NCBI GenBank assembly: GCA_029267335.1
Contig: JAJUJC010000004.1
Location: 1 to 64,000 of the forward strand
Direction: 5' to 3'
Length of the DNA: 64,000 bases
Source of the DNA: Intestinibacillus massiliensis
GTDB lineage: Bacteria; Bacillota; Clostridia; Oscillospirales; Butyricicoccaceae
The notes under the pieces are model-generated. The model made no database searches, was not told where the DNA came from, and saw nothing but the letters and a program-made list of their open reading frames with translations. Shown here in pieces: positions 2,071 to 39,630 of the stretch; the stretch's first letter is position 1; every line of letters starts with the position of its first letter. Both the position numbers and the translations under genes were made by a program.

Positions 2071-2104
2071 AAGCGGCGTCCCGGAAACGGGACGCCGCTT
2101 TTTT
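2071..2104 (+). terminator. Intrinsic terminator after abrB
   Basis: A perfect 13-bp stem (2071-2083 with 2088-2100), GAAA tetraloop and TTTT tail. The spoIIID C-terminal half ends at 2103, so the hairpin may also serve that strand. Confidence 0.9.
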
Positions 2105-2285
2105 AGTGATCGTGGGCAGCCGTCTCCTCTTCCGCGCGGTGCGCGCGCACCTCCCGATATTTTTCCCGTGTCGCCAGTCCCCCGCGAATGTGGCGCTCAC
2201 ACTTGTTTTTGCTAAGTACTGCCTGCACCTGCATGTACAGGGTACGGTTGAGATGCTCCAAACGGTCTGTAATGTCTTTGTGCAC
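2103..2285 (-). pseudogene. spoIIID: C-terminal half of split spoIIID
   Basis: From the His codon at 2280-2282 onward the frame encodes HKDITDRL, then a helical stretch, then CERHIRGGLATREKYR, matching the second half of SpoIIID (HKDxTERL ... RHIRGGxATKxKY). SpoIIID is the mother-cell DNA-binding regulator between SigE and SigK. No ribosome site precedes the GTG at 2285, and the sequence stops resembling SpoIIID exactly at that codon. The missing first 38 residues lie at 10760-10870 on the same strand. It is therefore half a gene, silent unless the 8.5-kb element between the halves leaves. Fusing the halves gives 96 residues, against 93 in Bacillus. Confidence 0.88.
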
Positions 2286-2304
2286 GGCAGAGGGGATTTG
2301 GAAC
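2259..2304. other. Left attachment junction of element 1
   Basis: spoIIID coding sequence ends on the left of TG 2281-2282. The element-side arm 2283-2304 ends in GGGGATTTGGAAC, the inverted partner of GTTCCTTTTCCC at the other end of the element. In the circular form these arms are symmetric about the TG. Confidence 0.75.
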
Positions 2305-2325
2305 GCATGCCCTCTGCGTTTTTTT
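2287..2325 (+). terminator. Intrinsic terminator just inside element 1
   Basis: An 8-bp stem GCAGAGGG/CCCTCTGC (2287-2294 with 2310-2317) followed by a run of seven T. It would stop plus-strand transcripts entering the element from the abrB side. It overlaps the element-side arm of the attachment site. Confidence 0.6.
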
Positions 2326-2395
2326 GCAATCTTTTCACAAAAAAATTCGCTTTCTTACGGTTTTCTTAATAAACTATTACAATTTGGAAACCACA

Positions 2396-2424
2396 TTGCG
2401 GCGCACGCCCCTATGCGGTACAAT
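2396..2424 (+). promoter_or_regulatory. Putative sigma-A promoter for the efflux operon
   Basis: TTGCGG (2396-2401), a 17-base spacer and TACAAT (2419-2424) lie about 100 bases before the MacA-like gene. A moderate match to the housekeeping consensus. Confidence 0.45.
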
Positions 2425-2528
2425 AGATTTACGCCATTGTGTAGATTTTGTGAACCGCAGCGATCAAACCGCGCACTTCAAACGTCTATCAAATATGAGG
2501 TAAATCAAATCAACCGGAGGAAATGAAC

Positions 2529-4358
2529 ATGACCCACAACACGCCACACACCCCCCCCACCGAGGAGCTGCCGACCGCGCCGAACGCCGCGGAAAAACCC
2601 GCTCTCGTACGCAATAAATATGCGGACACCATGAATAAGCGCAAACGGAAGATGCCTAAAAAATTCAAGATCGGTCTGACGCTCATTATTCTGGCGCTGC
2701 TGATCGGGGGCTCTGTCTGGCTCGTCAAAAAAGCACAATCTGCCGGCAAAGAACAGCAGACCATGCAGCAGACAGCGTTTGCGACGCGCGGCGCGCTCGA
2801 AACCTTCGTCGAGGGCAACGGCCGCACCGCGGCTAAGAGCAAATACGATCTCGGCAAGGAGCTTAAGGGCATCGTCACCGAGGTCAAGGTCACGAGCGGC
2901 GACGCGGTGCACAAGGGCGATGTGCTGTTCATCGTAGACCCGAAGGACACCCGCAAGGATCTCGATACCGCCATCAGTGAGCTTGACGATGCGCAGCGCG
3001 CAGTCGATGAAGCTGCTTCCGCGCTGCAAAAGGCGCAGAAAAACGTATCCAATCTGACGATCACCGCACCGTTTTCCGGCAAGGTGATCCCCAATGTAGA
3101 CGATAAGGGCGTCTCCAAGACCTATAAGATCGGTCAGTCCATCAATACCGGCGACGTCATCGGCACGATGGTGGACGATACGACGATGCGTCTGCCGCTG
3201 TACTTCAACTATTCCTACCTAAATCAGGTCAAGGTCGGCGCGACCGCCTCTGTTTCCATTCCCGCAAGCATGTCTACGGTCACCGGCAAGGTATCGGAGA
3301 TCGAAAAAACACAGCGCATTTCCGATGACGGCGTGATGCTGTTCCGCGCGATCATCACCCTCACTAACCCCGGAACGCTCAAAAAAGATATGCTCGCGAC
3401 CGCGTCGATCACGACTGCGCACGGTGTGCTCATGCCTGCAGAAGCCGGTAAACTCGCCTATACCCGCGAAGAAGAGATCACCGCCAAGAGTGCGGGCACG
3501 ATCAGCGCGATCAACAACCTCGACTATTACCGCTACAGCGCGGGTGCTGTGCTGTGCAAGCTGCAAAGCGACGACACTGTGACCGCGGTGGGCACGGCGC
3601 AGCGCTCGCTTGAAACCGCGCGGAAGACGGTGGAAAGCAAGCAGACGCGCGTTGCGGAGCTGCAAAAGCTGCTCACCGATTCGACTGTAATCTCTCCCAT
3701 CGACGGCATTGTGCTCAATATGTCCGCCGCCGTAGGCGACAAGCTTGAGGGCAACGCCGCGCCGTGCACCGTTGCAGACCTCAGCTCCCTCATCGTCAAA
3801 GCGGATATATCCGAGCTGGATGTCGGCAAGGTCAAGGTCGGCATGGAGGTGCGCCTGACGCTCGATAACGAAGCGGCGACCGCTTATACCGGCAAGGTCG
3901 AAACCGTCAGCCTGCAATCGAGCAGCAACAGCTCCGGCGGCGGCAACTCTGGCGGCGGCAACGGTCAGGGGAGCACGCTGTCCTTCCCCGCAGTCATTCA
4001 CCTCGACTCGATCGAAAATCTGCGTCCGGAGCAGAGTATCTCGTACAAGATCGTTACCGCATCCAAGGCGGACTGCATCACCGTTCCGTCGTCTGCCATC
4101 GTCTATTCGGATAGCGGCGCGGCAGTCTACATGAAGCCCGCTGAGGGTCAGACGCCGGAAAACGTGCTCCCCTCGCCCGAGGGCAGCAACGTGCCGGAAG
4201 GCTTTGTACTGGTTCCGGTCACGACCGGTCTCTTTGATGATACGAACACCGAGATCGTCTCTGGTATCGACGAGGGTACGGAAGTCTATCTGTCCGGTCC
4301 GCAGGATCCGTTTGCGCAGCAGAACGCTACCGGCGACGCGGCAGTCGCGGCAGGTTAA
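2529..4358 (+). CDS. MacA/HlyD-type efflux adaptor protein
   Basis: A 609-residue membrane-fusion (periplasmic adaptor) homologue. A basic cytoplasmic N-terminus precedes one membrane helix at about residues 45-66. The exterior part has two lipoyl/barrel-sandwich regions (around GKELKGIVTEVKVTSGDAVHKG and ISPIDGIVLNMSAAVGDKL) split by a coiled-coil, then a Gly/Ser-rich linker and a beta-barrel/membrane-proximal domain. In Gram-positives such proteins link a MacB-type ABC transporter to peptide or drug export. I prefer ATG 2529 because GGAGG at 2516-2520 is 8 bases away; ATG 2523 is only 2 bases from it. First gene of a three-gene efflux operon carried inside element 1. Substrate unknown. Confidence 0.88.
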   Translation: MTHNTPHTPPTEELPTAPNAAEKPALVRNKYADTMNKRKRKMPKKFKIGLTLIILALLIGGSVWLVKKAQSAGKEQQTMQQTAFATRGALETFVEGNGRTAAKSKYDLGKELKGIVTEVKVTSGDAVHKGDVLFIVDPKDTRKDLDTAISELDDAQRAVDEAASALQKAQKNVSNLTITAPFSGKVIPNVDDKGVSKTYKIGQSINTGDVIGTMVDDTTMRLPLYFNYSYLNQVKVGATASVSIPASMSTVTGKVSEIEKTQRISDDGVMLFRAIITLTNPGTLKKDMLATASITTAHGVLMPAEAGKLAYTREEEITAKSAGTISAINNLDYYRYSAGAVLCKLQSDDTVTAVGTAQRSLETARKTVESKQTRVAELQKLLTDSTVISPIDGIVLNMSAAVGDKLEGNAAPCTVADLSSLIVKADISELDVGKVKVGMEVRLTLDNEAATAYTGKVETVSLQSSSNSSGGGNSGGGNGQGSTLSFPAVIHLDSIENLRPEQSISYKIVTASKADCITVPSSAIVYSDSGAAVYMKPAEGQTPENVLPSPEGSNVPEGFVLVPVTTGLFDDTNTEIVSGIDEGTEVYLSGPQDPFAQQNATGDAAVAAG

Positions 4359-4370
4359 GGGAGGCGCAGC

Positions 4371-5117
4371 ATGAAACAACACACCGCCCCACCCTCCGTC
4401 AGCGGCCCCCATCATCTGATCGAGCTTGACCGCATCAGCAAGATCTATAACGAGGGCAAGGAAAACGAGGTGCGCGCGCTTGAGGACATCAATCTGACGA
4501 TCGACCACGGCGAGTTCGTGTGCTTTCTCGGACAGTCCGGCTCGGGCAAATCGACGCTGATGAACATCCTCGGCTGCCTCGATCTGCCGACCTACGGACG
4601 CTATGTGCTCAACGGCACCCCGGTCAGCGAGATCAAACCCTCGGTGCTGTCCCAGATCCGCAACCGCGAGATTGGCTTCATTTTTCAGGGCTTCAACCTG
4701 ATCCCTGCGCTGAGCGCACTGGAAAATGTCGAACTGCCGCTCATCTATCGCGGCACGCCCCGCGCCGAGCGCTATGAGCTTGCGTGCGCCGCACTGGAGG
4801 AGGTCGGACTGGGCAACCGTATGCACCACCTGCCGACTGAGATGTCTGGCGGTCAGCAGCAGCGTGTCGCGATCGCCCGCGCGATGGCAGCCCGCCCGCC
4901 GATCATCATGGCGGATGAACCGACGGGCAACCTGGACTCCAAGTCCGGTCATGAGATCATGAACCGCTTGCGCGCGCTGAACGACGAGACCGGTACGACC
5001 GTCATCCTCATCACCCATGACAGTCATCTCGCCACGATGGGCAAACGCATCGTGACCATCACCGACGGGCATGTCGTAAACGACGAACTCTACACAGGAG
5101 GAAAGCTCGAGGCATGA
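4371..5117 (+). CDS. MacB/LolD-type ABC transporter ATPase
   Basis: A 248-residue nucleotide-binding subunit. Walker [10 protein letters not shown] is at residues 54-62, the Q-loop FIFQGFNL at about 103-110, the ABC signature MSGGQ at 158-162 and Walker B IIMADEP at 178-184, followed by the NLDSKSG sequence typical of the MacB/LolD/FtsE branch. It powers the exporter formed with the adaptor before it (12-base gap) and the permease after it (ATGA overlap at 5114-5117). Confidence 0.95.
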
Positions 5118-6331
5118 GTATTATACAAACGCTGACTATGGCGTTCAAATCCATCCTAAATAACAAGATCCGCTCCATCCTGACCATGCTCGGCATCATC
5201 ATCGGCGTTGCATCGGTCATCACGCTCGTCGCCTCGATCCAGGGCTTGCAACAGGTCGAAAAACTCGCGTCAGAAGCGATGGGCGTCAACCGCATCGACA
5301 TGTATATGTCCATTAACAGCTCGAAAACGCGTAAAGCGATTATCGAATACTGCGAAAAAGAAATGGGAAAAGAACTGCTCGGCATGACACCGAACGTCAA
5401 CGCCTCGATGCCCGTCAGCTACCGCACCAAGAACATGAAGGACATTCGTCTGAACTTCGGCAACGAACAGTATACGACCTGTGCTTCGCAGTCCATTGCG
5501 GCAGGCCGCGGTCTCACCAAGGCAGACCTGAAAAACCGTTCGCGCGTGTGTGTCATCGGTGAAGCGGTGCGCAAGAACTTTTTCGGTGCTATGAGCCCGC
5601 TTGATAAGGAAATCAAGATTAACGGACAGTCCTATCGTGTCATCGGCGTATACAAGGGCAAATTCGGCGGCAAACTCAACACCGACGACGCGATGGTACT
5701 GCTTCCCTTTACCTTGCAGCAGCGCGTCACCGGTTGGGAGGACAACTCCTCCTACATTCTCCGCGGTCGGGACACCAAGACCGTGAAGGCGTTTATTGAA
5801 TCGCTGACGGCATTTGCCAATGCGCGCATCAACCCGAACCGGGAATCCTTCAATATCTATTCCAACGACCAGTATCAGGAGCAGAGTCAGCAGCAATATA
5901 CCATGATGAGTCTGGTCGCAGGCGGCGTCGCGGGCATTTCCCTGCTTGTCGGCGGCATCGGCATTATGAACATCATGCTGGTCTCGGTCACCGAGCGTAC
6001 CCGTGAAATCGGCATCCGTATGGCGATCGGCGCGCGCCGGCGCGACATTATCGGTCAGTTTTTGATCGAGGCAGGCGCGGTTTCCGCCTTCGGTGGACTG
6101 CTCGGCATCGCATTCGGCTTTCTTGGCTCGGCGGCCCTCGGCAGTCTCATCATCGGGCAAGTCGCAAGCAGCCCCTGGATGCCGGAGCTGCCGTCTTTGA
6201 CCATTCTGCCGTCCGCGCCGCTCGTACTCGGCGCATTCCTGTTTTCCGCACTGCTCGGCATCATCTTCGGTCTGTATCCTGCGAATAAGGCTTCCAAGAT
6301 GCAGCCGGTCGATGCACTTCGCACACAATAA
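5114..6331 (+). CDS. MacB-type ABC transporter permease (FtsX family)
   Basis: A 405-residue permease with the MacB layout: a first membrane helix at about residues 20-42 (RSILTMLGIIIGVASVITLV), a large exterior MacB_PCD domain, and three C-terminal helices, the first beginning GGVAGISLLVGGIGIMNIML. The cytoplasmic motif TERTREIGIRMAIGARRRDI is diagnostic for FtsX-family permeases. The start overlaps the stop of the ATPase gene, implying translational coupling. Confidence 0.95.
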   Translation: MSIIQTLTMAFKSILNNKIRSILTMLGIIIGVASVITLVASIQGLQQVEKLASEAMGVNRIDMYMSINSSKTRKAIIEYCEKEMGKELLGMTPNVNASMPVSYRTKNMKDIRLNFGNEQYTTCASQSIAAGRGLTKADLKNRSRVCVIGEAVRKNFFGAMSPLDKEIKINGQSYRVIGVYKGKFGGKLNTDDAMVLLPFTLQQRVTGWEDNSSYILRGRDTKTVKAFIESLTAFANARINPNRESFNIYSNDQYQEQSQQQYTMMSLVAGGVAGISLLVGGIGIMNIMLVSVTERTREIGIRMAIGARRRDIIGQFLIEAGAVSAFGGLLGIAFGFLGSAALGSLIIGQVASSPWMPELPSLTILPSAPLVLGAFLFSALLGIIFGLYPANKASKMQPVDALRTQ

Positions 6332-6367
6332 CGCGTGCTACACCCAATCAGGGAGGTTTAAACGATC

Positions 6368-8626
6368 ATGATAAAGAAACGAATTTTATGCGGTGCGCTG
6401 TCCGCTACGCTGCTGCTTGGCAGCGCCGCCGCATCCTTTACCGACATTTCCTCACCCAATGTCAAGCAGGCAGCCGCCGTTTTGGACGCGTTGCAGATCA
6501 TGCAGGGCGAGGGCGCGGGACGCTTTAACCCGGGCGGTCAGCTCACGCGCGCGCAGTTCTGCAAGCTTGCGGTCACCGCGCTCGGCGTCAGCGATGTTTC
6601 CGCCTACAAAAACTATTCGGTATTCCCCGATGTACCCGCTTCGCACTGGGCATCCGGCTATATCAATGCCGCGCTCAAGCAGACCGACATCGCGGAAAAG
6701 AAAATCATTCGCGGGTTTGCCAACGGTACCTTCGGACCGGATAAAACCATCACCTACGGCGAAGCATGCACGATGCTGCTGCGCATGCTTGGCTACACGG
6801 TCGACGACGTGGGACCGTTCTGGCCCACCGACTACATCGGCAAAGCAGAAGGCTTAGGGCTGAACCGCGGTATCCCCCACTACGGTACCAACGAGATCGT
6901 AAAGCGCGGCGACGCTGCTGTGATGTTGCTCAACACCTTGCAGGCTGCTCCGAAAAAGGACGGTACCAAGCTGCTCATGAATACCGTTGCAACCAGTACG
7001 GTGGAGGACAGCATCCTGCTCGCGACCTCGGAAACAGACAGCGATCTGCGCAAGGGGCAGGCGCGCTTTTATGAGAGCGGCGCAATCCAGATCCGCTCGC
7101 TTGCGGATACGCTTGACCGCGCGCTCATCGGCACACGCGGCACAGTGCTGTTCGACAAGCTGACGACGAACAAGGTGCGTGCTTTCGTGCCGAAAAGCTC
7201 GGACTCCGAGACCATCACCGTCAAGCAGGCCTATGCCGACCGCATCGAAACCGCCGACCAGAAACTCAAGGTGCCCACCAAGACACCGGTCGTGCTCAAT
7301 GGTACGCTCGTCGAATACGGCACGGCGTGGCCGGATCTGACGCCCGATTACGCGCTCAATATCTTTTACGACAGCGGCCGCCAGATCGAGCTGATCTCCG
7401 CTGCAACACCGACCGCAGGCGCTTCTTCGTTTGTTTATGGCATGATTTCGTCCGTCAAGATTCCCGCGGACTACAAAATCATGAAAAACGGCGTTGAGAT
7501 CGAGCGTGGTGCGCTGCAACAATACGATCTGGTCTCGCTGAATGCAGAGAGCAAAACCGCTGTCGCTTCCGACCGCCGCATCACGGGCTATCTGCGCAGC
7601 GCGGCACCCTCGTACACCCGTCCGAGCCGCGTGACCGTTCTTGGACACGAGTTCCCCATTTCGGACAATGTGGCATCGTATTTCACGGGCATGAAGTTCA
7701 ATGACAAGGTGACGCTGCTGCTTGACAGCTTCGGCACGGTGCAGGCGGCGTATCCCGCGAGCACGGTATCGACCGAAAATATCGGCGTGTTTACCGCGTC
7801 CGCAAGCGGCAAGGCAACCGTGCAGATGCTCGCCGGTGTCAGCGCCTCGGGTGAACTGTCCTCGAGCGACAGCGCGTGTCTGCTGGGTCAGCTTGTGCGC
7901 GTCTCCGCGGATTCCAACGGTAAGCTGCTGCTGACCGGCTACACCGCTCTCAGTGCCGCGGATGGCAGTTGGTCTGTCTCGTCCCGAACCTTGGGCAAGC
8001 GCAAGGTCGCCCCGAATGTCAAGATCTACGAAACGGTCGCTGACCGTGCCCCGATCGCTTTGATCAGTGACCGCGATCTGAATCTGACGACGGTCGCCGC
8101 TGCTGATATTCGTGGCGTGCTGCTCGATTCCGCCGGCTCGGTGACCTCGATCTTCCTGCGCGATGTGACCGGTCTGGGCTGGCAGTACGGCATCGCCTAC
8201 GGCAATCGTGTCAAGACCGGCTCGGATGAGGATGCGTCCTACATCAACTCCATCGTCTTTAAGACCCGTGTCAACGGCGAAATGGTCACGCGTACCTATC
8301 AGGTTGATCATTTGCCGAGCGGTCTCAGCGGTTCGCCTATAGGGCTTCCTAAGGGCATGGACGGTGTGGAAGGTATGCTGTACAACCTGCCTGTCAAAAA
8401 GCTCACCACGGTCGGTTCTGTCGGCGTCAACGCGTTTGACGGTGTGGACGGCGTCAAGACCCCGTCCGGCTACCTGACGCTGCCCGAGGACATCAGCGTC
8501 TATGCAAGCGATACCGAAAAACTGATCTCGCTGCGTGAAGCAAAGCTCAACTATCAGGAGTTCACGCTTTACGGTGACACTTCCTCTTCAAACGGCGCAC
8601 GCGTCTATATGATTCGCGCCAAGTAA
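6368..8626 (+). CDS. Secreted S-layer-homology (SLH) protein
   Basis: A 752-residue exported protein. A signal peptide (about residues 1-22, ending LLLGSAAA) is followed directly by three SLH modules (about 24-80, 85-140 and 150-195; recognisable pieces are FNPGGQLTRAQFCKLAV, FPDVPASHWASGYI and FGPDKTITYGEA). These bind secondary cell-wall polymers and hold the protein on the cell surface. The remaining 550 residues are beta-rich and not assigned. The gene follows the efflux operon by 36 bases and ends at a shared terminator, so it may be the fourth gene of that operon. Confidence 0.88.
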   Translation: MIKKRILCGALSATLLLGSAAASFTDISSPNVKQAAAVLDALQIMQGEGAGRFNPGGQLTRAQFCKLAVTALGVSDVSAYKNYSVFPDVPASHWASGYINAALKQTDIAEKKIIRGFANGTFGPDKTITYGEACTMLLRMLGYTVDDVGPFWPTDYIGKAEGLGLNRGIPHYGTNEIVKRGDAAVMLLNTLQAAPKKDGTKLLMNTVATSTVEDSILLATSETDSDLRKGQARFYESGAIQIRSLADTLDRALIGTRGTVLFDKLTTNKVRAFVPKSSDSETITVKQAYADRIETADQKLKVPTKTPVVLNGTLVEYGTAWPDLTPDYALNIFYDSGRQIELISAATPTAGASSFVYGMISSVKIPADYKIMKNGVEIERGALQQYDLVSLNAESKTAVASDRRITGYLRSAAPSYTRPSRVTVLGHEFPISDNVASYFTGMKFNDKVTLLLDSFGTVQAAYPASTVSTENIGVFTASASGKATVQMLAGVSASGELSSSDSACLLGQLVRVSADSNGKLLLTGYTALSAADGSWSVSSRTLGKRKVAPNVKIYETVADRAPIALISDRDLNLTTVAAADIRGVLLDSAGSVTSIFLRDVTGLGWQYGIAYGNRVKTGSDEDASYINSIVFKTRVNGEMVTRTYQVDHLPSGLSGSPIGLPKGMDGVEGMLYNLPVKKLTTVGSVGVNAFDGVDGVKTPSGYLTLPEDISVYASDTEKLISLREAKLNYQEFTLYGDTSSSNGARVYMIRAK

Positions 8627-8639
8627 GCCTTTGCAGCAA

Positions 8640-8675
8640 AAATCCCGCCATTTACCCAAATGGCGGGATTTTTAT
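8640..8675. terminator. Bidirectional terminator between SLH gene and recombinase
   Basis: A perfect 14-bp stem (8640-8653 with 8658-8671) with A-rich and T-rich flanks, placed between two convergent genes ending at 8626 and 8672. Confidence 0.9.
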
Positions 8676-10129
8676 ATGCTCCGGCACAGATTACGGAACA
8701 GAATCGCGATATGACCGTCCGCGTGTACCTCGATGCGCTCCAGCAGCGCATGCAGCAGCGCGCTGTCGAGCAGAGACAGCGCAAGCGGATCTTCCGGCGG
8801 CGCGCTACCCGGATCGCTCTGCGACTGCTCGCACAGCGTCCGTGTGCGCTCTGCTTCCTCCTGCAGACGGCGCAGCCGTGTCCGGCAATCCTCCAAGGAC
8901 AACCCACCCGATTCATAGAGTGCGAGCAGCCGCTCACGCGCCTGTTCACTGCGTTTGAGTGCACGCTGTGCCTGTTCCCGCCCCTGCGCAGGAGGCTGCA
9001 AACGCCGGTAGGCGCGTACGGTCTCCTGTACGAGCACGCCGTCCCGTCCCACCGTGCGCAAATATGCTGCCAGCGTACCGAGCAGCTCGTTCTCGTCGAT
9101 GCTTGTACGGTTTTCGCAAAAATCCGTACCGTTGGCATTGCGCCCCGCACACACCCATCGCACGCGTTCCCCCGCCTGTGTATGCCGCACCACACGCCGA
9201 AAACCGCTGCCGCAGCAGGTGCAGCGCAGCAGTCCGCTCAGCGGGTACTGTCGATGCCGTGCACCGCCGCCAAATGCCTGCGTGCGTCCCGCCAACATGC
9301 GCTGCACGCAGTCAAACTGCTCGCGCGGGACGATCGCGAGTGCAGGGTTGTCCCGCACAAGCCACTGTGTCTCCTCCGTCTGCCCCCGCCGTCCGGTTAG
9401 ATAATCCGCGATATACTCCCGTCCGTTGACGACCTCACCTATGTAAATGCGATGGGACAGCAGCCTGCGCACAGCAGCCTGCGTAAAGGCACAGCCGCGC
9501 TTGGTTTGCTCGCCGCGTGCCGTCAGCAGCGCTGCGATCCGGTTCGTGCCATATGCGCCCGATGCATACCAGTCAAAAATCTGCCGCACGACTGCCGCTT
9601 CCCGCTCATTGATCCGCAGCGTGAAATACTCCCCGGGCACTTTGTCATATCCGTAGATCAGATTGGGTACGCGCCCCTGTGTAGCATTTTTACGCTTGCC
9701 GAATTTCACACGACCGGACAGATTCGCACTTTCCTCCTGCGCGACCGCCGCCAGAATCGTGAGCGTCAGTTCGCCATCCGACAGCGACATCCCCGAGGTG
9801 ATAAACTGGCAATCCACGCCCATTGCGCGCAAACGACGCACGCTCTGCAAAAAATCGACCACGTTGCGCGCCATACGCGATACATCTTTGACGAGCACCC
9901 GTCCAAACAGTCCGCGCTCGGCGTCCCGCATCAAATCGGCAAATGCACGGCGGTTTTTCAGCCGCGTACCGCTCAAGCCTTCGTCCGCATACACCCCGAC
10001 CAGCGTTAAGCCTTGTTTTTGGGCATACTCCTCAAAAAATGCTTTTTGATGGGCTAGGCTGACGAGCTGTTCGTCCTTTTCGGTCGATACACGGCAATAC
10101 GCCGCGACGCGTGATGCATCAGCGTGCAT
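8672..10129 (-). CDS. Large serine recombinase of element 1
   Basis: A 485-residue large serine recombinase, the length of SpoIVCA. The resolvase domain (about 7-150) begins AAYCRVSTEKDEQ, with the catalytic serine at residue 15, and contains the DVSRMARN motif. A recombinase domain follows (GKRKNATQGRVPNLIYGY to about 270), then a zinc ribbon (CTCC ... CAGRNANGTDFC) and a coiled-coil rich in Arg, Glu and Gln. I start at ATG 10129, which overlaps a 36-codon ORF, because the 26 residues upstream do not fit the family. It lies near the right end of the element and points inward, away from spoIIID. Predicted to recombine the two junctions and rebuild spoIIID. Confidence 0.94.
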   Translation of the reverse strand: MHADASRVAAYCRVSTEKDEQLVSLAHQKAFFEEYAQKQGLTLVGVYADEGLSGTRLKNRRAFADLMRDAERGLFGRVLVKDVSRMARNVVDFLQSVRRLRAMGVDCQFITSGMSLSDGELTLTILAAVAQEESANLSGRVKFGKRKNATQGRVPNLIYGYDKVPGEYFTLRINEREAAVVRQIFDWYASGAYGTNRIAALLTARGEQTKRGCAFTQAAVRRLLSHRIYIGEVVNGREYIADYLTGRRGQTEETQWLVRDNPALAIVPREQFDCVQRMLAGRTQAFGGGARHRQYPLSGLLRCTCCGSGFRRVVRHTQAGERVRWVCAGRNANGTDFCENRTSIDENELLGTLAAYLRTVGRDGVLVQETVRAYRRLQPPAQGREQAQRALKRSEQARERLLALYESGGLSLEDCRTRLRRLQEEAERTRTLCEQSQSDPGSAPPEDPLALSLLDSALLHALLERIEVHADGHIAILFRNLCRSI

Positions 10130-10229
10130 TGTCCTGCTGTCGCAGTGCCGCGCGTGCGAGCAGCTCAGGCAGCGCGCGACGCAGCGCTTCTGCCGCATTC
10201 GGGTCAATGATCTCCACTTGGATCGTCAC
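10119..10229 (-). CDS. 36-residue ORF translationally coupled to recombinase 1
   Basis: A GTG start at 10229 has AAAGGAGGGA just upstream, a far better ribosome site than the recombinase itself has. The product begins VTIQVEIIDPNAAEALRR and ends NAR; its stop TGA overlaps the recombinase ATG in the other frame, so translation of the recombinase probably depends on it. No family recognised. Possible roles are a leader peptide or a directionality factor. A similar tiny ORF precedes the second recombinase at 25114. Confidence 0.7.
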   Translation of the reverse strand: MTIQVEIIDPNAAEALRRALPELLARAALRQQDNAR

Positions 10230-10259
10230 AGTCTGTCCCTCCTTTCCGTTCGGAATGGT

Positions 10260-10288
10260 ATAGCCTATGCGCGCCGGCGCGATTGCAT
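10260..10288 (-). promoter_or_regulatory. Mother-cell-type promoter motif upstream of recombinase 1
   Basis: On the minus strand: ATGC, 13 bases, CGCATAG, 2 bases, TAT. CATAGGCTA fits the CATAnnnT(A) -10 pattern of sigma-E/sigma-K; the -35 side is not a clear match. The same motif with identical spacing precedes recombinase 2 (25032-25060). The implied transcript would start about 24 bases before the GTG of the small ORF. Confidence 0.45.
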
Positions 10289-10293
10289 GCATG

Positions 10294-10322
10294 AAAAAAT
10301 CCGTCCCCGAAGGAACGGATTA
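10294..10322 (-). terminator. Terminator after the XRE regulator
   Basis: On the minus strand, ATCCGT and ACGGAT pair across an eight-to-ten-base loop and a run of six T follows. It separates the XRE gene from the recombinase unit, which therefore needs its own promoter. Confidence 0.65.
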
Positions 10323-10331
10323 CGCAGTGCG

Positions 10332-10535
10332 TCAGCTGTAAAATTGTGTCCAGTCCAGATCCAAAACCTGCGCAACCTGTTTCGCAGTCGCCACGGGCAC
10401 CTTATGGTCTCCGTTTTCGATACGAGTATAGTAGCTGCGTGCAATGCCGGCGGCCTCCGCTACCTGTTCCTGCGTCATTCCCATCGCCTTACGCTTCTCC
10501 AATAGCCATCCCCGTACATTCTCTTTGTTTTTCAT
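10332..10535 (-). CDS. XRE-family helix-turn-helix regulator
   Basis: A 67-residue single-domain regulator. The helix-turn-helix GMTQEQVAEAAGIARSYYTRIENG covers about residues 18-41; there is no other domain. ATG 10535 is chosen because GAGGAG lies 8 bases upstream; a GTG 9 bases earlier overlaps that site. It resembles the small repressors that keep integrated elements quiet. Upstream, in AT-rich sequence, a TATAAT (10649-10654) and several AGAAC half-sites suggest it controls its own promoter. Whether it also controls the recombinase is unknown. Confidence 0.88.
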   Translation of the reverse strand: MKNKENVRGWLLEKRKAMGMTQEQVAEAAGIARSYYTRIENGDHKVPVATAKQVAQVLDLDWTQFYS

Positions 10536-10550
10536 GATGTCCACTCCTCA

Positions 10551-10722
10551 TTCTGCAAAATTCAGAACTTTTTGATGTATTTTAGCTAAATAAATAAATA
10601 TATATAAATGTTACAATTTATCACCAAAATACTTCTATATTCACCATAATTATACCACACAAAATGTGATTTTGCAGAACAAAAAGATATTTTTTAAATT
10701 AAAAAATGTTCTATTTTAGAAC
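10551..10722 (-). promoter_or_regulatory. AT-rich control region with repeated AGAAC half-sites
   Basis: It contains TTCTG-N7-CAGAA (10551-10567), a CAGAAC half-site (10675-10680) overlapping the -35 position of a TATAAT box (10649-10654), and the palindrome GTTCT-N5-AGAAC (10708-10722). These are probable operator sites for the adjacent XRE regulator. The last palindrome lies just beyond the stop of the spoIIID N-terminal half and, followed by T-rich sequence, could also act as a weak terminator. Confidence 0.5.
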
Positions 10723-10726
10723 TTTT

Positions 10727-10870
10727 TTAGGTTATGTTCCTTTTCCCATCATCTGTATGTACCGTTGACTTTGATATTCCAAACTGCGCGGCAGCCTGCC
10801 GCACCGTCGCCTCCTGCTCAATGATGTACTGCGCCAGGCGAATCGCCCGCTCTTCCGGTAAGCCTTTCAC
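10727..10870 (-). pseudogene. spoIIID: N-terminal half of split spoIIID
   Basis: A GTG at 10870, with GGAGGG upstream, opens VKGLPEERAIRLAQYIIEQE, then ATVRQAAAQFGISKSTVH: the complete N-terminal part of SpoIIID including its helix-turn-helix. After STVH the frame leaves homology, adds nine element-encoded residues (TDDGKRNIT) and stops. The rest of the protein is at 2103-2282. As it stands the gene could make a 47-residue truncated protein lacking the C-terminal basic helix used for DNA binding. A CATAGAAA box at 10909-10916 resembles a sigma-E -10 element, as expected for spoIIID, but is only a partial match. Confidence 0.88.
10736..10781. other. Right attachment junction of element 1
   Basis: SpoIIID coding sequence resumes to the right of TG 10758-10759. 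The element-side arm 10736-10757 starts GTTCCTTTTCCC. With the left-end arm 2283-2304 it gives a 46-bp site in which 14 of 22 mirrored positions match and the centre falls exactly on the shared TG. Confidence 0.75.
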
Positions 10871-10940
10871 AAGCGCTCTCCCTCCGATTTCTGTTATGAT
10901 ATATCGTATTTCTATGCCGCAGCACTGCATAGTAGACATA

Positions 10941-22140: not shown

Positions 22141-23142
22141 TTAGCTCGGCATTGCAACCTGAGAACCTTCCTTCTGCAGACCGTCAACGACCGACTGCAG
22201 CGCATCCCATGCCTGCTGACCGGACTTTTCAGCCGGAGCCGGTTCGGGATACTGATACCACTCGACCACCGGCTTGTAGCCGCCGGGGATGGTGTTGCCA
22301 TCTGCGTCCATCGCCTTGGAGTTACCGGACCAGATACCGAATGCACAGCCGACGATACCGACTACGAGGATGAGCATGATGCACTTGACCGGCGTCCAGC
22401 CCTTCTTGATGAGGACGTACAGACCCAGTGTGATCAGCAGCGGAATCAGCTTGGGCAGGATGCCATCAAGCAGACTCTGGATGTTGATCTGCGTGCTGCC
22501 GACGACCATACGGACCGTCGTGCCGCCGTAGTTTGCGATCAGACCACCGACGACGAAAACGCCGAGGATGCTCGCCGCACGGGTGAACTCCTTCGCGCTC
22601 GCGGTCAGCAGCGTTACTGCCTTGGTGCCCAGGCCGTAAGACCAGTACATCAGACCGAAACGGATTGCAAACTGTGCTGCGTTGAAAATAAGTAGGAACA
22701 GAATTGCGCCGGCAATGTTGCCCTGCAACGCGATATTTGCAGTCAGACCTGCGGTGATCGGAACGAGCGTCAGCCAGAACAGTGCGTCGCCGATGCCGCC
22801 GAGCGGGCCTGCAGCCGAAATACGTACGGAACGGATCGTCTGGGTATCAGCCTTGTTCTGCTCGAGTGAAAGCACGATGCCCATAACGAATGTAACAAGG
22901 AACGGATGCGTGTTGAGGAAGTCGAGGTTGTGTGCCATGGACGCCTTCAGATCTTCCTTATTGGTATGGATCTTCTGCAGACCGGGAAGCATGGACCACA
23001 GCCAGCCGCACGCCTGCATTCTTTCGTAGTTGAAGGATGCCTGCAAGAAGCAGGACAGCCACACCATTTTGTTCAGGGTCTTTTTATCCAGCTTCGGAGC
23101 CGGCGTCAGATCCTGATACTTTTCAGGAATATTATATGCCAT
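22141..23142 (-). CDS. PTS system IID component, mannose family
   Basis: A 333-residue IID membrane subunit. Landmarks: FLQASFNYERMQACGWLWSM, HPFLVTFVMGIVLSLEQ, AAGPLGGIGDALFWLTLVPI, typical of EIID-Man. The C-terminal 40 residues extend beyond the last membrane segment (YPEPAPAEKSGQQAWDA). The correct start is ATG 23142, with GGGAGG upstream, inside the end of the IIC gene (11-base overlap). Confidence 0.94.
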   Translation of the reverse strand: MAYNIPEKYQDLTPAPKLDKKTLNKMVWLSCFLQASFNYERMQACGWLWSMLPGLQKIHTNKEDLKASMAHNLDFLNTHPFLVTFVMGIVLSLEQNKADTQTIRSVRISAAGPLGGIGDALFWLTLVPITAGLTANIALQGNIAGAILFLLIFNAAQFAIRFGLMYWSYGLGTKAVTLLTASAKEFTRAASILGVFVVGGLIANYGGTTVRMVVGSTQINIQSLLDGILPKLIPLLITLGLYVLIKKGWTPVKCIMLILVVGIVGCAFGIWSGNSKAMDADGNTIPGGYKPVVEWYQYPEPAPAEKSGQQAWDALQSVVDGLQKEGSQVAMPS

Positions 23143-23965
23143 CCGAGTCACCTCCCATGTTGCCTGCGCCCGCGCCTGCGTTCGCCTTGATCTTGGTGTT
23201 GATCGAGAAGTCATAGATTGCAATCGCCGCACCGACGAATGCGCACAGGAGCAGCGTTGCGCCTGCGGTGGTCGCGTTTGCACTGCACAGCAGCGCCATT
23301 GCGAAGCCTGCGAGCAGGAAGCCCCACATCTCGTTGGACATCATGACCTTCATCAGGATCGCGAAGCCGACAAATCTCATTGCGCCGCCGGCTGCGTCAA
23401 GACCAGCCATGACCCAAGAGAACTGATAGGACAGGTTCTTGAGCGTTTCGCCCAGCGCGCTGCCGCCGTACAGACCGGCAACTGCAAGCAGACCGAACAA
23501 CGTGCCCAAGATCGCCATTTCCATGAAGTTGATGTTACGAATGCCCTTGGCATCTGCGTTCTCAGCGCACTTATCCGCCTTTGCCATCATGCCGGACATG
23601 ATGGTGAAGGTCAGCGTAACTGCGTACTGACCGAATACCGCGAACGGGATCGCAAGACCCATTGCAGCGCCGACGCCCTCCGCCGTGGCATCCATGCCGA
23701 GAGAAACCGCGAATACGGTTGCCATGATACCACCGAGGATTGCGTTAGGCGGCTGTGCGCCGCCGATCGGCATGCTGCCGATCTGAATCAGCTGATATGC
23801 ACCGCCGACTACAACGCCAAGCTCGAAGTTACCGAGGATCGCGCCAATGATCGGGCAGGTGACGATCGGTTGATAGAGAGACTCCAGGAAGCTGAACTGA
23901 TCGATGCCCATGATAAATGCGACAACGAAGACCAGTATTGCCTGGATAATGGTGATTTCGCCCAT
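23132..23965 (-). CDS. PTS system IIC component, mannose family
   Basis: A 277-residue EIIC-Man permease with many membrane segments. GQYAVTLTFTI, GGAYQLIQIGSMPIGGAQPP and FLLAGFAMAL are recognisable family pieces. With IID it forms the sugar channel; the presence of KbaY/Z, AgaS and a deacetylase nearby points to N-acetylgalactosamine or galactosamine. Second gene of the operon. Confidence 0.94.
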   Translation of the reverse strand: MGEITIIQAILVFVVAFIMGIDQFSFLESLYQPIVTCPIIGAILGNFELGVVVGGAYQLIQIGSMPIGGAQPPNAILGGIMATVFAVSLGMDATAEGVGAAMGLAIPFAVFGQYAVTLTFTIMSGMMAKADKCAENADAKGIRNINFMEMAILGTLFGLLAVAGLYGGSALGETLKNLSYQFSWVMAGLDAAGGAMRFVGFAILMKVMMSNEMWGFLLAGFAMALLCSANATTAGATLLLCAFVGAAIAIYDFSINTKIKANAGAGAGNMGGDSDGI

Positions 23966-24001
23966 TTTTTACTCCTTTCCAGATGCGTACAGGTTCAAAA
24001 C

Positions 24002-24478
24002 TTACCGAAACAGCTTTTCAATGTTTTCTGCCGGCGTATCCGGAACGCGCTTGATCTCGAGCTCAACGCCGAGCTGCTGCAACTTTCTGAAGGTTGCTAC
24101 ATCATCATCATTTACCGCGACTGAGGTTGCAACCTGACGTTTCCCATCCGCCATGTGCATGTTCCCGATATTCACTTTTTTGATCGGCACCCCGCCCTCA
24201 ACCAGCTTCAGAACATCTTGCGGTGTTTCGCAGATGATCGCGATATGCTGATTAGGCGAAGCCTTTCCAATGATGTTGATCGTCTTCTCGATCGAGAAGA
24301 AGCGCGTCTGCGCGTAGGACGGCGCAGCCATGTTCATAAGCCCCTGGCGGAACTCATCGGTCGAGACTGCATCGTTTGCAACGAGCAGCAGATTCGCGCC
24401 GACAACGCCGCACCACTGTGTTGCGACCTGTCCGTGAATCATACGATTGTCAATACGAGTTAATACAATATCTGGCAT
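24002..24478 (-). CDS. PTS system IIB component, mannose family
   Basis: A 158-residue EIIB-Man/Sor domain. RIDNRMIHGQV carries the phosphorylated His at residue 15; VNIGNMHMADGKRQVA is the conserved second motif. First gene of the leftward operon IIB-IIC-IID-(helical-repeat protein)-IIA-agaS-yajC; AGAAAGGGG lies ahead of the ATG. Confidence 0.94.
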   Translation of the reverse strand: MPDIVLTRIDNRMIHGQVATQWCGVVGANLLLVANDAVSTDEFRQGLMNMAAPSYAQTRFFSIEKTINIIGKASPNQHIAIICETPQDVLKLVEGGVPIKKVNIGNMHMADGKRQVATSVAVNDDDVATFRKLQQLGVELEIKRVPDTPAENIEKLFR

Positions 24479-25031: not shown

Positions 25032-25060
25032 ATGCGGACAAGCCCGACCGCATAGAGTAT
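25032..25060 (+). promoter_or_regulatory. Mother-cell-type promoter motif upstream of recombinase 2
   Basis: ATGC, 13 bases, CGCATAG, 2 bases, TAT: the same layout as upstream of recombinase 1 (10260-10288, minus strand). CATAGAGTA fits a CATAnnnT(A) sigma-E/sigma-K -10 element. Confidence 0.45.
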
Positions 25061-25113
25061 GCTAGGACGCACCCGTGCGCCCCACTCATTTTCTCAAAGG
25101 CGGTGTGACAACT

Positions 25114-25242
25114 ATGGCGAACAAACAAACCGAGATTTTATGCACAAACCATTTTCAAAGTACGGAACAAGCGCGCAAAGCCGCGTTTACCGAACTGTGT
25201 GCGCGCATGATCCAAGCGTCGGAATGCGCGCGCACGCGTTGA
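25114..25242 (+). CDS. 42-residue ORF upstream of recombinase 2
   Basis: An ATG at 25114 with AAAGGCGG upstream opens MANKQTEILCTNHFQSTEQA, then RKAAFTELCARMIQASECARTR and a stop 11 bases before the recombinase ATG. The helix-forming second half and the position suggest a small partner protein of the recombinase, for example a directionality factor, or a leader ORF. No family assigned. The first element has a 36-codon ORF in the same place. Confidence 0.7.
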   Translation: MANKQTEILCTNHFQSTEQARKAAFTELCARMIQASECARTR

Positions 25243-25253
25243 CGCGGTGCGCC

Positions 25254-26825
25254 ATGTCCACGGAAAATCGCGATCGGGTAGGCATCTACTGTCGTTTATC
25301 CGAAGAGGATCATGGAAAACGTGACCCCACGGACGATAGCGACAGTATCCGAAACCAAAAAGCCATGCTGCTGCAATATGCGCACGAACAGGGTTGGAGC
25401 GTCTGCCGGATCTATAGCGACGACGACTATACGGGCGCCGACCGTAACCGTCCTGCGTTCCGGCAGCTGCTTGAAGATGCGCGTGCGCGCAAATTCGACA
25501 TCGTGCTGTGCAAATCGCAGTCGCGCTTTACACGTGAATTGGAGCTGGTCGAAAAGTATCTGCACGGATTGTTTCCGTTGTGGGGCATCCGGTTTGTCAG
25601 CGTGGTGGACAATGCGGACACCGAAAACAAAGGCAATAAAAAATCGCGGCAGATCAACGGCCTTGTCAACGAGTGGTATCTGGAGGATCTGTCGGACAAT
25701 ATCCGCAGCGTGCTCATAAATCGGCGGCAAAACGGACTGCATATCGGCTCGTTTGCGCTGTACGGCTATCGCAAAGACCCCGACCGCAAGGGACATCTGC
25801 TCATCGACGAGGATGCCGCGACCGTCGTGCACGAAGTGTTTACGCTGTTTGCCGCAGGATACGGCAAAACCGCGATCGCACGCATGCTCAACGATCGGTG
25901 CATCCCCAATCCGACGGCGTATAAACGGCTGCACGGGCTGCGTTATCAGCCGCCCGCGGAAAGAACCGGTACGCTGTGGACCTATGCGGCGATCTCCTCC
26001 ATGCTGCACAATGAAATGTATCGCGGCAACATGATACAAGGGAAATACGGTAGCATTTCCTATAAGACCAAGCGCAATCGGGCGCGTCCGCCCTGCGACT
26101 GGTACGTTGTGGAGGGGACACACGAGCCGATCATCGAGCGCGCGCTGTGGGATCAGGTGCAGACGCTGCTGACACAAAACGCAAAGCCGTTCACGGCGGG
26201 TACGATCGGTCTGTTCACCGGAAAAGCGCGCTGTGCGCACTGTGGCGGTGCGATGCGCTCGACCACAAACCGCGGCAGGCGCTATCTGCAATGCGCTCGT
26301 CACGCTGCCGCGCCGGAGGCATGCATCGGCAGCTTTATTGCGGTCGACCGTCTGGAGGACATGGTTTTGAAGCAGCTTGCGCAGTTTTGCACGGACTATC
26401 TGGACATCGACGCGCTTGCAGCACAAATCAAGCCGCAGCCGGATGTGCAGCATCATATCGGCCGCTTGCGCACCCGTCTTGCGCACTGTGAAGCGCGCTG
26501 CGCCCAGGATACCGCCGCGCTGCGATCGCTTTATCTGGATAAGGTAGACGGGTTGGTCTCCGAGCAGGATTTTCGCACGCTTTCCCTCGACTTCTCCAAC
26601 GAGAAGGCGCGCTTATCGCGTGAACTTGACGCGCTGCGCGCGCAGCTGCGCACCTTAGAAGAATCCCGTGCGCAAGGGGACGACATGTCCGCATGCATCG
26701 CACAAACCCTTCCGCCTACGCAGTTGACCCGGGAAGCAGTCGACCGTTTCCTGTCCTCAATCGAGATTGGGAAACGCATTTCCGGCACGCGGCAGGTACC
26801 GGTCGCGCTGCACTGGAACTTCTAA
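25254..26825 (+). CDS. Large serine recombinase of element 2
   Basis: A 523-residue large serine recombinase. The resolvase domain begins VGIYCRLSEEDH with the catalytic Ser at residue 16, and includes SDSIRNQKAML and KSQSRFTRELELVEKYL. The recombinase domain contains FALYGYRKDP, the zinc ribbon CAHCGGAMRST ... CARHAAAPEACIGSF, and a coiled-coil follows (about 410-470). ATG 25254 is preferred over the longer frame, which overlaps the small ORF. Clearly different from recombinase 1, so each element has its own enzyme. Its stop lies 20 bases from the right junction. Confidence 0.94.
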   Translation: MSTENRDRVGIYCRLSEEDHGKRDPTDDSDSIRNQKAMLLQYAHEQGWSVCRIYSDDDYTGADRNRPAFRQLLEDARARKFDIVLCKSQSRFTRELELVEKYLHGLFPLWGIRFVSVVDNADTENKGNKKSRQINGLVNEWYLEDLSDNIRSVLINRRQNGLHIGSFALYGYRKDPDRKGHLLIDEDAATVVHEVFTLFAAGYGKTAIARMLNDRCIPNPTAYKRLHGLRYQPPAERTGTLWTYAAISSMLHNEMYRGNMIQGKYGSISYKTKRNRARPPCDWYVVEGTHEPIIERALWDQVQTLLTQNAKPFTAGTIGLFTGKARCAHCGGAMRSTTNRGRRYLQCARHAAAPEACIGSFIAVDRLEDMVLKQLAQFCTDYLDIDALAAQIKPQPDVQHHIGRLRTRLAHCEARCAQDTAALRSLYLDKVDGLVSEQDFRTLSLDFSNEKARLSRELDALRAQLRTLEESRAQGDDMSACIAQTLPPTQLTREAVDRFLSSIEIGKRISGTRQVPVALHWNF

Positions 26826-27325: not shown

Positions 27326-28969
27326 ATGGAAAACAAAATGTTTTGCTATCAGTGTCAGGAAACCGCCGGCTGCACCGGCTGCACGATGTCCGGTGTGTGC
27401 GGCAAGAATCCGTCGGTCGCTGCAATGCAGGATCTGCTCGTCTATGTGACTAAGGGTCTGTCCGCCGTCACCACCGCGCTGCGCGCGGAGGGCAAGCCGG
27501 TTTCCCGTGAAGTCAATCACCTTGCCACCCTCAACCTGTTTGTCACGATCACGAACGCGAACTTCGACGAAGAAGCCATCACCGCACGCATCGTAGACAC
27601 GCTTGCGGTCAAGCGCGATCTGCTGAAGCAGGTCTCCTCCCCCGCTGCGCTGCCCGAGGCGGCACACTGGGACGCGCCGCGCGGCGAATTTTCCACCAAG
27701 GCCGCAACGGTCGGCGTGCTGTCCACCAAGGATGAGGATGTCCGCTCCCTGCGCGAGCTGATCACCTACGGTCTGAAGGGTCTGTCCGCGTACTCCAAGC
27801 ACGCGAACGCGCTGTTGCAGGATGATGCAGAGGTCGACGCATTCCTGCAGCGCGCACTCGCCGCAACGCTCGACGACACCCTCAGCGTCAACGATCTGAT
27901 CGCGCTCACGCTCGAGACCGGCAAGTACGGCGTCGACGGCATGGCGCTGCTCGACAAGGCGAACACGACCGCTTACGGCAACCCCGAGGTGACCAAGGTC
28001 AATATCGGCGTCGGCAAAAACCCCGGCATCCTGGTCTCCGGTCACGACCTGCGCGACATCGAGATGCTGCTTGAGCAGACTGCGGGCACGGGTGTCGACG
28101 TCTACACCCACTCCGAGATGCTGCCTGCGCACTACTATCCGGCGTTTAAGAAGTATCCGCACTTCGTCGGCAACTACGGCAACGCATGGTGGAAGCAGAA
28201 GGAAGAGTTTGAGTCCTTCAACGGCCCCATCCTCATGACCACCAACTGCATCGTGCCGCCCAAGGATAGCTACAAGGATCGCATGTACACCACGGGTGCG
28301 GCGGGTTATCCGGGCTGCAAGCACATTCCGGGCACAACGGGCGAGTCGAAGGACTTCTCCGAGATCATCACGCACGCCAAGCGCTGCGCCGCTCCGACCG
28401 AGATTGAGACCGGCGAGATCATCGGCGGCTTCGCACACGCACAGGTGCTTGCGCTCGCAGACAAGGTCGTCGACGCCGTCAAGTCTGGTGCAATCAAGAA
28501 GTTCGTCGTCATGGCGGGCTGCGACGGCCGCGCGAAGTCGAGAAACTACTACACCGATTTTGCCAAGGCGCTGCCCAAGGATGCGGTCATCCTGACGGCG
28601 GGCTGCGCGAAGTATAAGTACAACAAGCTCGATCTGGGCGACATCGGCGGCATCCCGCGCGTACTCGACGCAGGTCAGTGCAACGATTCCTACTCGCTTG
28701 CGGTCATTGCGCTCAAGCTCAAAGAAGTATTCGGCCTGGATGACATCAACGATCTGCCGATCGTTTACAACATTGCGTGGTATGAGCAGAAAGCCGTCAT
28801 CGTGCTGCTGGCGCTGCTGTACCTCGGCGTGAAGAACATCCACCTCGGGCCGACGCTGCCGGCGTTCCTGTCTCCCAACGTCGCCAAGGTGCTTGTGGAA
28901 AACTTCGGCATCGCGGGCATCGGCACGGTCGAGGACGACATGGCGCTCTTCTTTGGCGAAAACGCATAA
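27326..28969 (+). CDS. hcp: Hydroxylamine reductase (hybrid-cluster protein)
   Basis: A 547-residue Hcp. The N-terminal Cys set C7, C10, C19, C25 (CxxC-N8-C-N5-C, in [15 protein letters not shown]) binds the proximal Fe-S cluster; [34 protein letters not shown] (seen at about residues 236-270) and the Cys-containing [24 protein letters not shown] and [11 protein letters not shown] bind the hybrid cluster. It reduces nitric oxide or hydroxylamine in the cytoplasm of anaerobes. AGGAGG precedes the ATG. Single gene with its own terminator; regulation by an HcpR-like factor is inferred from the upstream palindrome. Confidence 0.96.
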
Positions 28970-39587: not shown

Positions 39588-39630
39588 TTTTGTCCCCTTT
39601 CTCCGTCGGCTTTTGAGCCGTTCCGCGATT

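Follow-up and report, generated by a model that had tools for sequence, protein, structure and literature searches.

A large serine recombinase element with a near-palindromic predicted attP site splits the sporulation gene spoIIID in Intestinibacillus massiliensis

Introduction

Sporulation genes known to be interrupted by elements include sigK, spsM, spoVFB, gerE and yabG, as listed in the part of PMC10747680 that was available. The skin element of C. difficile needs a directionality factor under the control of sigma-E and SpoIIID (PMC5025042, available in part), and this factor is 53 aa long (PMC10747680, within the same part). The accessible portion of PMC5595907 describes gin, located in gerE of B. 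cereus ATCC10987, as an element without phage genes in a small transcription-factor gene, with a serine recombinase, a small factor and an imperfect inverted repeat at its att sites. In the literature searched, whose scope left out most subscription journals, no report of an interrupted spoIIID was found. The main text of a survey of large serine recombinases (LSRs; PMC10083194) was not found to name spoIIID in the part available, and the accessible part of PMC3533761 names the gene without an interruption. We read the element described here as a sporulation intervening element of the skin-like kind, whose target, spoIIID, is not named in the literature searched.

Here we analysed a stretch of 64,000 nucleotides of I. 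massiliensis (contig JAJUJC010000004.1, positions 1 to 64,000), hereafter the window. Its element 1 sits within the coding sequence of the sporulation gene spoIIID and carries a site-specific recombinase for its own ends; the assignment of the recombinase to these ends is by association and not by biochemistry.

Results

The only spoIIID gene of the genome is split

Element 1 splits the only spoIIID of the genome (2.2 Mb, rated 100% complete), as the SpoIIID matches consist of two halves alone. The features of the locus are as follows.

2103..2282, minus strand: spoIIID 3′ segment (HKDITDRL...RHIRGG...), PF12116 profile 36-80, open frame once joined
2281..2282, plus strand: core TG, left junction, placed by the mirror centre, the shared dinucleotide of relatives and alignment to intact spoIIID
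2283..10757, no strand: element 1 body, 8,477 bp with one TG counted (core to core), empty site aligned in G051 and G001
2283..2304, plus strand: predicted attP arm 2 (element left end), from the sequence at these coordinates
2523..4358, plus strand: HlyD/MacA-like membrane fusion protein (cargo), profile match
4371..5117, plus strand: ABC transporter ATPase (cargo), profile match
5114..6331, plus strand: MacB/FtsX-type permease (cargo), profile match
6368..8626, plus strand: S-layer homology protein (cargo), PF00395
8672..10129, minus strand: LSR, 485 aa from ATG at 10129 (longest frame from TTG at 10207); Resolvase, Recombinase and Zn_ribbon_recom above cut-off
10119..10229, minus strand: 36-aa frame VTIQVEIIDPNAAEALRRALPELLARAALRQQDNAR, short form of the 'DPN' protein (our own label), candidate recombination directionality factor (function inferred), from the IIDPN motif and position
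10262..10290, minus strand: weak sigma-E-like promoter GCATGCA-N14-CATAGGCT ahead of the DPN frame, score 11.5 of 16.2
10298..10321, minus strand: terminator-like hairpin between the HTH gene and the DPN-LSR pair, 1 found against 0.9 expected
10332..10544, minus strand: HTH_3 (XRE-type) regulator, PF01381, E 8.7e-16
10736..10757, plus strand: predicted attP arm 1 (element right end), from the sequence at these coordinates
10758..10759, plus strand: core TG, right junction, placed by the same three lines as the left one
10758..10939, minus strand: spoIIID 5′ segment (HTH half), PF12116 match, profile 5-42

The 5′ segment likely starts at a GTG near 10870, as judged by eye from a comparison with G002, and its frame continues for 31 bases beyond the core into element 1 until a stop at 10727. 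The rejoined frame reads ISKSTVHKDITDRL...ERHIRGG, and precise removal of element 1 restores the reading frame in silico. The insertion is in spoIIID and not in sigK, the gene that defines a skin element. Phage structural or replication genes were not found among the six frames searched (2523-10544, smaller frames excluded), which belong to transporter, SLH, LSR and HTH families.

The two halves might also act as a two-piece SpoIIID without rejoining, as a GTG at 2283-2285 could start the 3′ half. This is barely conceivable, since the split cuts the helix-turn-helix and, in relatives, the codons ahead of HKD in the 3′ half come from the element and vary.

Split spoIIID genes recur at the same codon

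PF12116 profile searches covered 87 genomes of the family, of which 78 had a match, and 394 genomes of the order, of which 336 had one. Among the latter, 23 genomes (the window's own included) had weak, partial best SpoIIID matches only; positions were searched again in the other 22 and in G057 from the family search. Both halves were found on one contig and one strand in 14 of the 23 genomes. The halves lie on two contigs in G170 and G278, one half was seen in G102, G103, G161, G244 and G288, G382 is cut by a contig end, and G274 has two abutting matches that look like a frameshift. These nine genomes, and G057 with its contig end, were set aside before the count of 14, which also leaves out genomes with a strong SpoIIID match and a second weak one. 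A second spoIIID 5′ half was seen in G178 at contig C23:82140-82256 (L091), besides the split copy on C10.

In all 14 full cases the break is at the identical codon, STV-H-KD, and the elements, of 6.7-34.9 kb, occur in six families of the order. In both halves, pN was compared with pS between split genomes (G216/G355: pN 0.06, pS 0.34-0.36; G262/G368: pN 0.045, pS 0.46-0.74). Since both halves are little changed in amino acids, these comparisons suggest that the rejoined spoIIID is used, with the reservation that the record may partly predate the insertions.

The sample of the class adds split spoIIID genes in G716 and G495 (each on two contigs), G663 (3′ half only) and the closed genome G570, where the halves are 64.7 kb apart. 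Clostridia bacterium RGIG7186 (L092) and MT838016.1 from human faeces likewise have an LSR beside a spoIIID 3′ half. The latter record (L146, 3605-3790) is named 'Bacteriophage sp.'; as it has an LSR and a spoIIID 3′ half, it holds an element end with host DNA.

A dead insertion, in which the element broke spoIIID and the strain became asporogenous or SpoIIID-independent, has to be weighed here. No excision was seen, as no reads or circle junction of the window genome were examined. Moreover, 58/394 genomes of the order (32/315 among the better assemblies) have no SpoIIID match, and therefore loss of spoIIID may be tolerated in places. On the other hand, the same codon is hit in the 14 full cases, the halves are in frame with few amino-acid changes, and an LSR frame, att sites and SpoIVA are present in the window's genome. 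We thus regard a dead insertion as improbable.

The predicted attP is symmetric about the core dinucleotide

Joining the ends of element 1 gives the arms GTTCCTTTTCCCATCATCTGTA and CACGGCAGAGGGGATTTGGAAC, which flank TG and are equal at 14/22 mirrored positions, including GTTCC-N3-TCCC. An earlier note on this DNA had described the site as a 46-bp near-palindrome with exactly these matches, and its numbers and coordinates were reproduced without change. With the same arms, at least 14 matches occurred by chance at 36/63,954 window positions (P = 0.00056); when two TG flanks were joined at random 200,000 times, 0.036% of the joins did as well as the 14/22. When 27-base arms were used, TG was the single best centre within 40 bases on either side (15/27; next 12). 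With 22-base arms and centres from -378 to +377 in the joined 802 bases, another centre, at +155, scored 15/22, and therefore the TG centre is good but not unique in element 1 alone.

As attL and attR of element 1 share only this crossover dinucleotide, homology to intact spoIIID is a fair test of its position. When aligned with the intact spoIIID of G051 (same genus) or of G001 (same family), window positions 2281-2282 and 10758-10759 fall on a single pair of bases. The flanks are collinear on both sides in G051; in G001 the alignment covers the left flank and, on the right, 126 bases. The claim that the symmetry centre coincides with the TG found independently from SpoIIID homology thus holds. 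A longer direct repeat at the element ends was rejected for the window, where TG alone is shared, and a GT core three bases away was rejected, as attL and attR do not share it in G164, G216 and G355.

In the 14 elements, the mirror test was performed with 27-base arms at centres from -40 to +40. The shared CA, which is TG on the plus strand of the window, was the single best centre in 14/14 (scores 13-23, no ties), and the summed score was 244 at CA against a mean of 99. The elements are related, and therefore the 14 results are not independent draws. Five pairs not used earlier (G570, G495, G716, G170 and G278) had their centre at 0 in 5/5. In G278 (L082/L083) the attP arms are of different sequence, mirrored at 20/27 positions, at the same codon; perhaps another recombinase found the same site.

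The common attP form is AAACCGTTC-N18-CA-N18-GAACGGTTT, of which the window retains GTTC-N18-CA-N18-GAAC. The attP is quasi-symmetric about its central dinucleotide, as is typical of LSR sites; the attB in spoIIID is not palindromic (5-9/20 matches). Because attL and attR share 3 to 12 bases in most relatives, one such element alone does not fix the crossover, which might be displaced from TG to a shared base pair nearby, for instance a GT three bases off. However, CA is the only dinucleotide common to attL and attR in all 14 elements, with the mirror centre on it in all, which makes such a shift very improbable.

The recombinase and its distribution

The window LSR has Resolvase, Recombinase and zinc ribbon domains, and R-V-S-T, with the serine of the catalytic motif, is invariant in the LSR alignment, as required of an LSR. 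A homologous LSR is carried by 14/14 elements. The window LSR is 39-44% identical to seven LSRs of other spoIIID elements and is found on a long branch of the tree. The LSR of each of the 13 other elements reaches the spoIIID 3′ half or stops no more than about 20 bases away from it, whereas the window LSR is at the opposite end. A named NCBIfam equivalog was rejected for this protein, the best matches, CcrB and XisF, being far below cut-off. A second LSR of the window (25059-26825, plus strand) lies between sorbose-type PTS genes (22141-24478) and a prismane-family gene (27326-28969), and a further LSR of the genome (G000:C8:109668-109994) shows about 35% identity to the element 1 LSR across 357 residues.

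LSR profile searches, which scored at most three first-look candidates per genome, gave 22 matches at the set limit in 388 genomes of the order. All 15 matches above 735 bits belong to the split set; eight of these were profile rows and seven were not. The seven weaker genomes (374-552 bits) comprise six with full-length spoIIID and one (G132) without a SpoIIID match. G433 has an LSR yet is absent from the match list of the 388 genomes, sampled or not. In 391 genomes of the class, 10 matches reached the set limit, including G716, G663, G495 and G570 with split spoIIID; G484 and G560 were weaker matches in this search and are outside the split/intact tally.

The tree places very similar recombinases in different families (G164/G355 and G102/G508), and because of this closeness we read them as a sign of transfer, as far as sequences alone can tell. 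G508, a closed genome without a SpoIIID match, has an LSR almost identical to that of G102. Its element of 10,395 bp, with an attP mirrored at 18/27 positions about CA, is located in a methyltransferase-like frame (identified by eye), and therefore spoIIID is not an absolute target. This element, at about 1,178,290-1,188,680 (L139/L140), occupies a secondary site of the same element family.

Integration is predicted to change the recombinase C-terminus in most relatives

The LSR frame runs through attR in 11/13 other elements, and 10 of these 11 stop at a TAA that spoIIID helps form; the frame of G355 reads on past attR. In G355 (L081) the core is CAC instead of CAT in spoIIID, and the LSR frame enters spoIIID for some 40 codons.

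In the relatives, the LSR frame continues across the predicted circle junction, and a tail of 12-14 codons was found in 13 of the 21 elements whose 5′ end was read; no 5′ end was obtained for the second G178 copy. These 13 tails were chosen as frames stopping at 11-16 codons, so that the stop position is partly a selection. The set leaves out G000, G237 and G433 (recombinase does not cross the core), G398 and G410 (frame runs on), and G103, G278 and G570. The conserved form is Y-x-S-N-K-x-E-R-F-I-W-x-I/V-x-stop, with E and R at codons 7 and 8 in 12/13 each and W at codon 11 in 11/13. The first stop is codon 15 in 11/13, and stops of all three kinds occur (TAA 5, TAG 5, TGA 3). Part of the tail conservation follows from the attP DNA itself, but the 27-base arm does not extend to the W, the hydrophobic residue and the stop.

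The LSR of phage L155, whose attP is unbroken, ends in the same kind of tail, ...AYSSNNLERFIWLIS. Because the frame continues over the circle junction and the phage LSR ends in such a tail, integration is predicted to swap the recombinase C-terminus in most relatives. Having its LSR at the other end, the window element has no such swap.

A phage contig carries an unbroken attP

Viral contigs were scanned with the LSR alignment, and 80 loci were kept among the at least 600 matching stretches, of which 600 were listed. Phage contig IMGVR_UViG_3300028833_003189 (L155; 62,399 bases, of which 21,488 were examined) carries, within the 3′ end of the LSR gene, an attP that is unbroken. This site is mirrored at 18/27 positions about CA, with one other centre (+122) that ties within 200 bases, and its neighbours are DNA polymerase III alpha, a RecD-like helicase, DNA ligase and tail-type proteins. 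Judged by sequence, it is the free form of the site that the earlier note had rebuilt from two ends. The idea that the palindrome is the attP of an LSR element with TG as the crossover thus gains support from the relatives and the phage site, all of it comparative; recombination, and an effect of changing the TG, have not been shown.

L155 was the one good attP in the 80 kept viral loci together with L092 and MT838016.1, among the matches listed. A spacing-pattern match in L194, some 8 kb from its LSR match, was taken as chance. No SpoIIID half was found in the stretch examined of any of the 80 viral loci kept among the matches listed.

A small protein gene with a sigma-E-like promoter accompanies the recombinase

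A small frame with the motif FH[DN]PN is present in 13/13 other elements. It lies at most 300 bases upstream of the LSR in nine, at 0.8-1.6 kb in G262, G368 and G178, and at 5.3 kb in G410. The DPN frame of the window is shorter, has IIDPN and overlaps the LSR start; similar short forms are found beside the LSRs of G495 and G120. PHROGs and NCBIfam gave no match of weight, and assignment of DPN to a known family was rejected. We propose the DPN protein as a candidate directionality factor, by its position and by analogy with the 53-aa CD1234; the function is inferred, without a sequence comparison with CD1234.

Promoters were scored with an assumed sigma-E consensus and assumed weights. The controls were mechanical ORFs, many of which are not genes, and the DPN start was set at the nearest start codon before the motif. 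A score of at least 12 was reached before DPN in 8/14 elements compared to 25/491 control frames (p 3e-7), or to 14/258 controls of like G+C (p 7e-7). In tests with shuffled sequence, 8/14 DPN promoters had p <=0.05 for the nearest 95 bases (Fisher 2e-10), and only 5/14 had p <=0.02 for the 200 bases upstream. The window promoter (11.5) had p 0.23 with the 200 bases upstream and p 0.03 with the 95 bases next to the gene. As the elements are related, these tests across elements are not independent. Six of 11 further loci have a recognisable DPN frame. The four loci with spoIIID-type LSRs (G102, G495, G508 and L155) score 12.5-14.5; of the two from the other LSR clade, phage L157 scores 12.5 and G120 8.2.

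The promoter bears on a plain integration of the prophage or ICE type without a developmental role, in which the site is used as conserved DNA and excision is confined to movement of the element. In favour of it, one of the contigs with an LSR and attP of this type is a phage, G508 carries its element in a non-sporulation gene, cargo varies between elements, and the sigma-E-like site is also present before the DPN frame of a phage with an LSR of the other clade (L157). Against it stand a sigma-E-like promoter ahead of the DPN gene in most elements and halves that are little changed in the hosts keeping the element. We consider it unlikely, but it is the most serious of the rivals.

The host has a split sigK-like gene

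In the window genome (G000) a sigK-like gene is split too, at C1:194044-194379 (model 4-115) and C1:272465-272815 (109-225), 78 kb apart, and another LSR adjoins its 3′ half (match C1:271339-271737). No match in G000 reached the cut-off of the sigma-K model. From the two complementary halves and the place of the break, which is that of skin, the split gene appears to be sigK and the element skin-like. At 250 bits, still under cut-off, the highest score in the genome against the spore sigma-K model is that of a sigma-70 family gene in the window (38877-39641, minus strand). If both elements are excised, the organism would rejoin two mother-cell regulators in turn.

Discussion

The split, its boundaries, the core, the symmetry, the recombinase, the conservation of both halves and the recurrence are read from DNA sequence. 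Beyond this, element 1 is very likely a sporulation intervening element in the HTH part of spoIIID, whose LSR and partner excise it in the mother cell and restore the gene; excision, mother-cell timing and the role of DPN are inferred. The LSR would once have joined attP, the 46-base near-palindrome, to the asymmetric attB in spoIIID at TG. In the sporulating mother cell, sigma-E would turn on the spoIIID promoter and the DPN small protein, and the LSR with its DPN partner would recombine attL with attR, releasing a circle. Restoration of the spoIIID frame would let SpoIIID act in the mother cell, which dies, while the forespore line would keep the element. Carrier cells must then probably cut their DNA to make a spore regulator, although excision was not observed. 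The short DPN frame, the weak promoter and an LSR on a long branch and at the opposite end from the 13 others weigh against this explanation, as does the G508 element outside spoIIID.

A broader reading, which we hold only tentatively and which may well be wrong, is that spoIIID is a recurrent, horizontally shared landing site, and that the elements make SpoIIID, the second of the mother-cell regulators, a gate of DNA rearrangement. In most relatives, but not in the window, attP would lie inside the LSR 3′ end, so that integration trims the conserved C-terminal tail and excision or circularisation restores it; the form of the LSR would change with the state of the element, as a built-in direction switch. 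With the second element of ~78 kb in the host's sigK-like gene, the organism would need two excisions in succession. Provided that it is functional, the tail swap would be a simple account of how an integrase tells whether its element is integrated.

SpoIIID controls sigK and, in C. difficile, the skin directionality factor as well. Should excision prove real, recombination would in turn gate SpoIIID in 14 to 21 of the 336 SpoIIID-matching genomes in the order sample. Genomes with a split spoIIID could also be wrongly scored as lacking the gene. With the att pairs, a phage with an unbroken attP and a conserved small protein at hand, the question could be put to a direct test in E. coli.

Compared with known systems, element 1 resembles skin in sigK (B. 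subtilis; C. difficile CD1231/CD1234) in that it splits a mother-cell regulator gene and carries its own LSR. In contrast to skin, its target is spoIIID, which acts before sigK. Since spoIIID is split until excision, a directionality factor of element 1 could not depend on SpoIIID beforehand, which fits with a promoter of a type that needs sigma-E only. The L155 phage has an LSR of the same clade, a DPN protein and an attP of the same form, but differs from element 1 in its nearby phage genes and unbroken attP. As far as the available parts of the sources go, vfbin (spoVFB), SPbeta (spsM) and yin (yabG) likewise interrupt a sporulation gene and bear a recombinase (PMC10747680); they differ in their targets, and yin has been reported for one strain alone, in contrast to the recurrence of the spoIIID site across several families. 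Gin, on the partial account available, is like element 1 in having no phage genes, a transcription-factor target, a serine recombinase with a small factor and an inverted repeat at att; it differs in its 28.6 kb, three recombinases and 9-bp shared sequence in gerE, compared to one LSR and a 2-bp identity in element 1.
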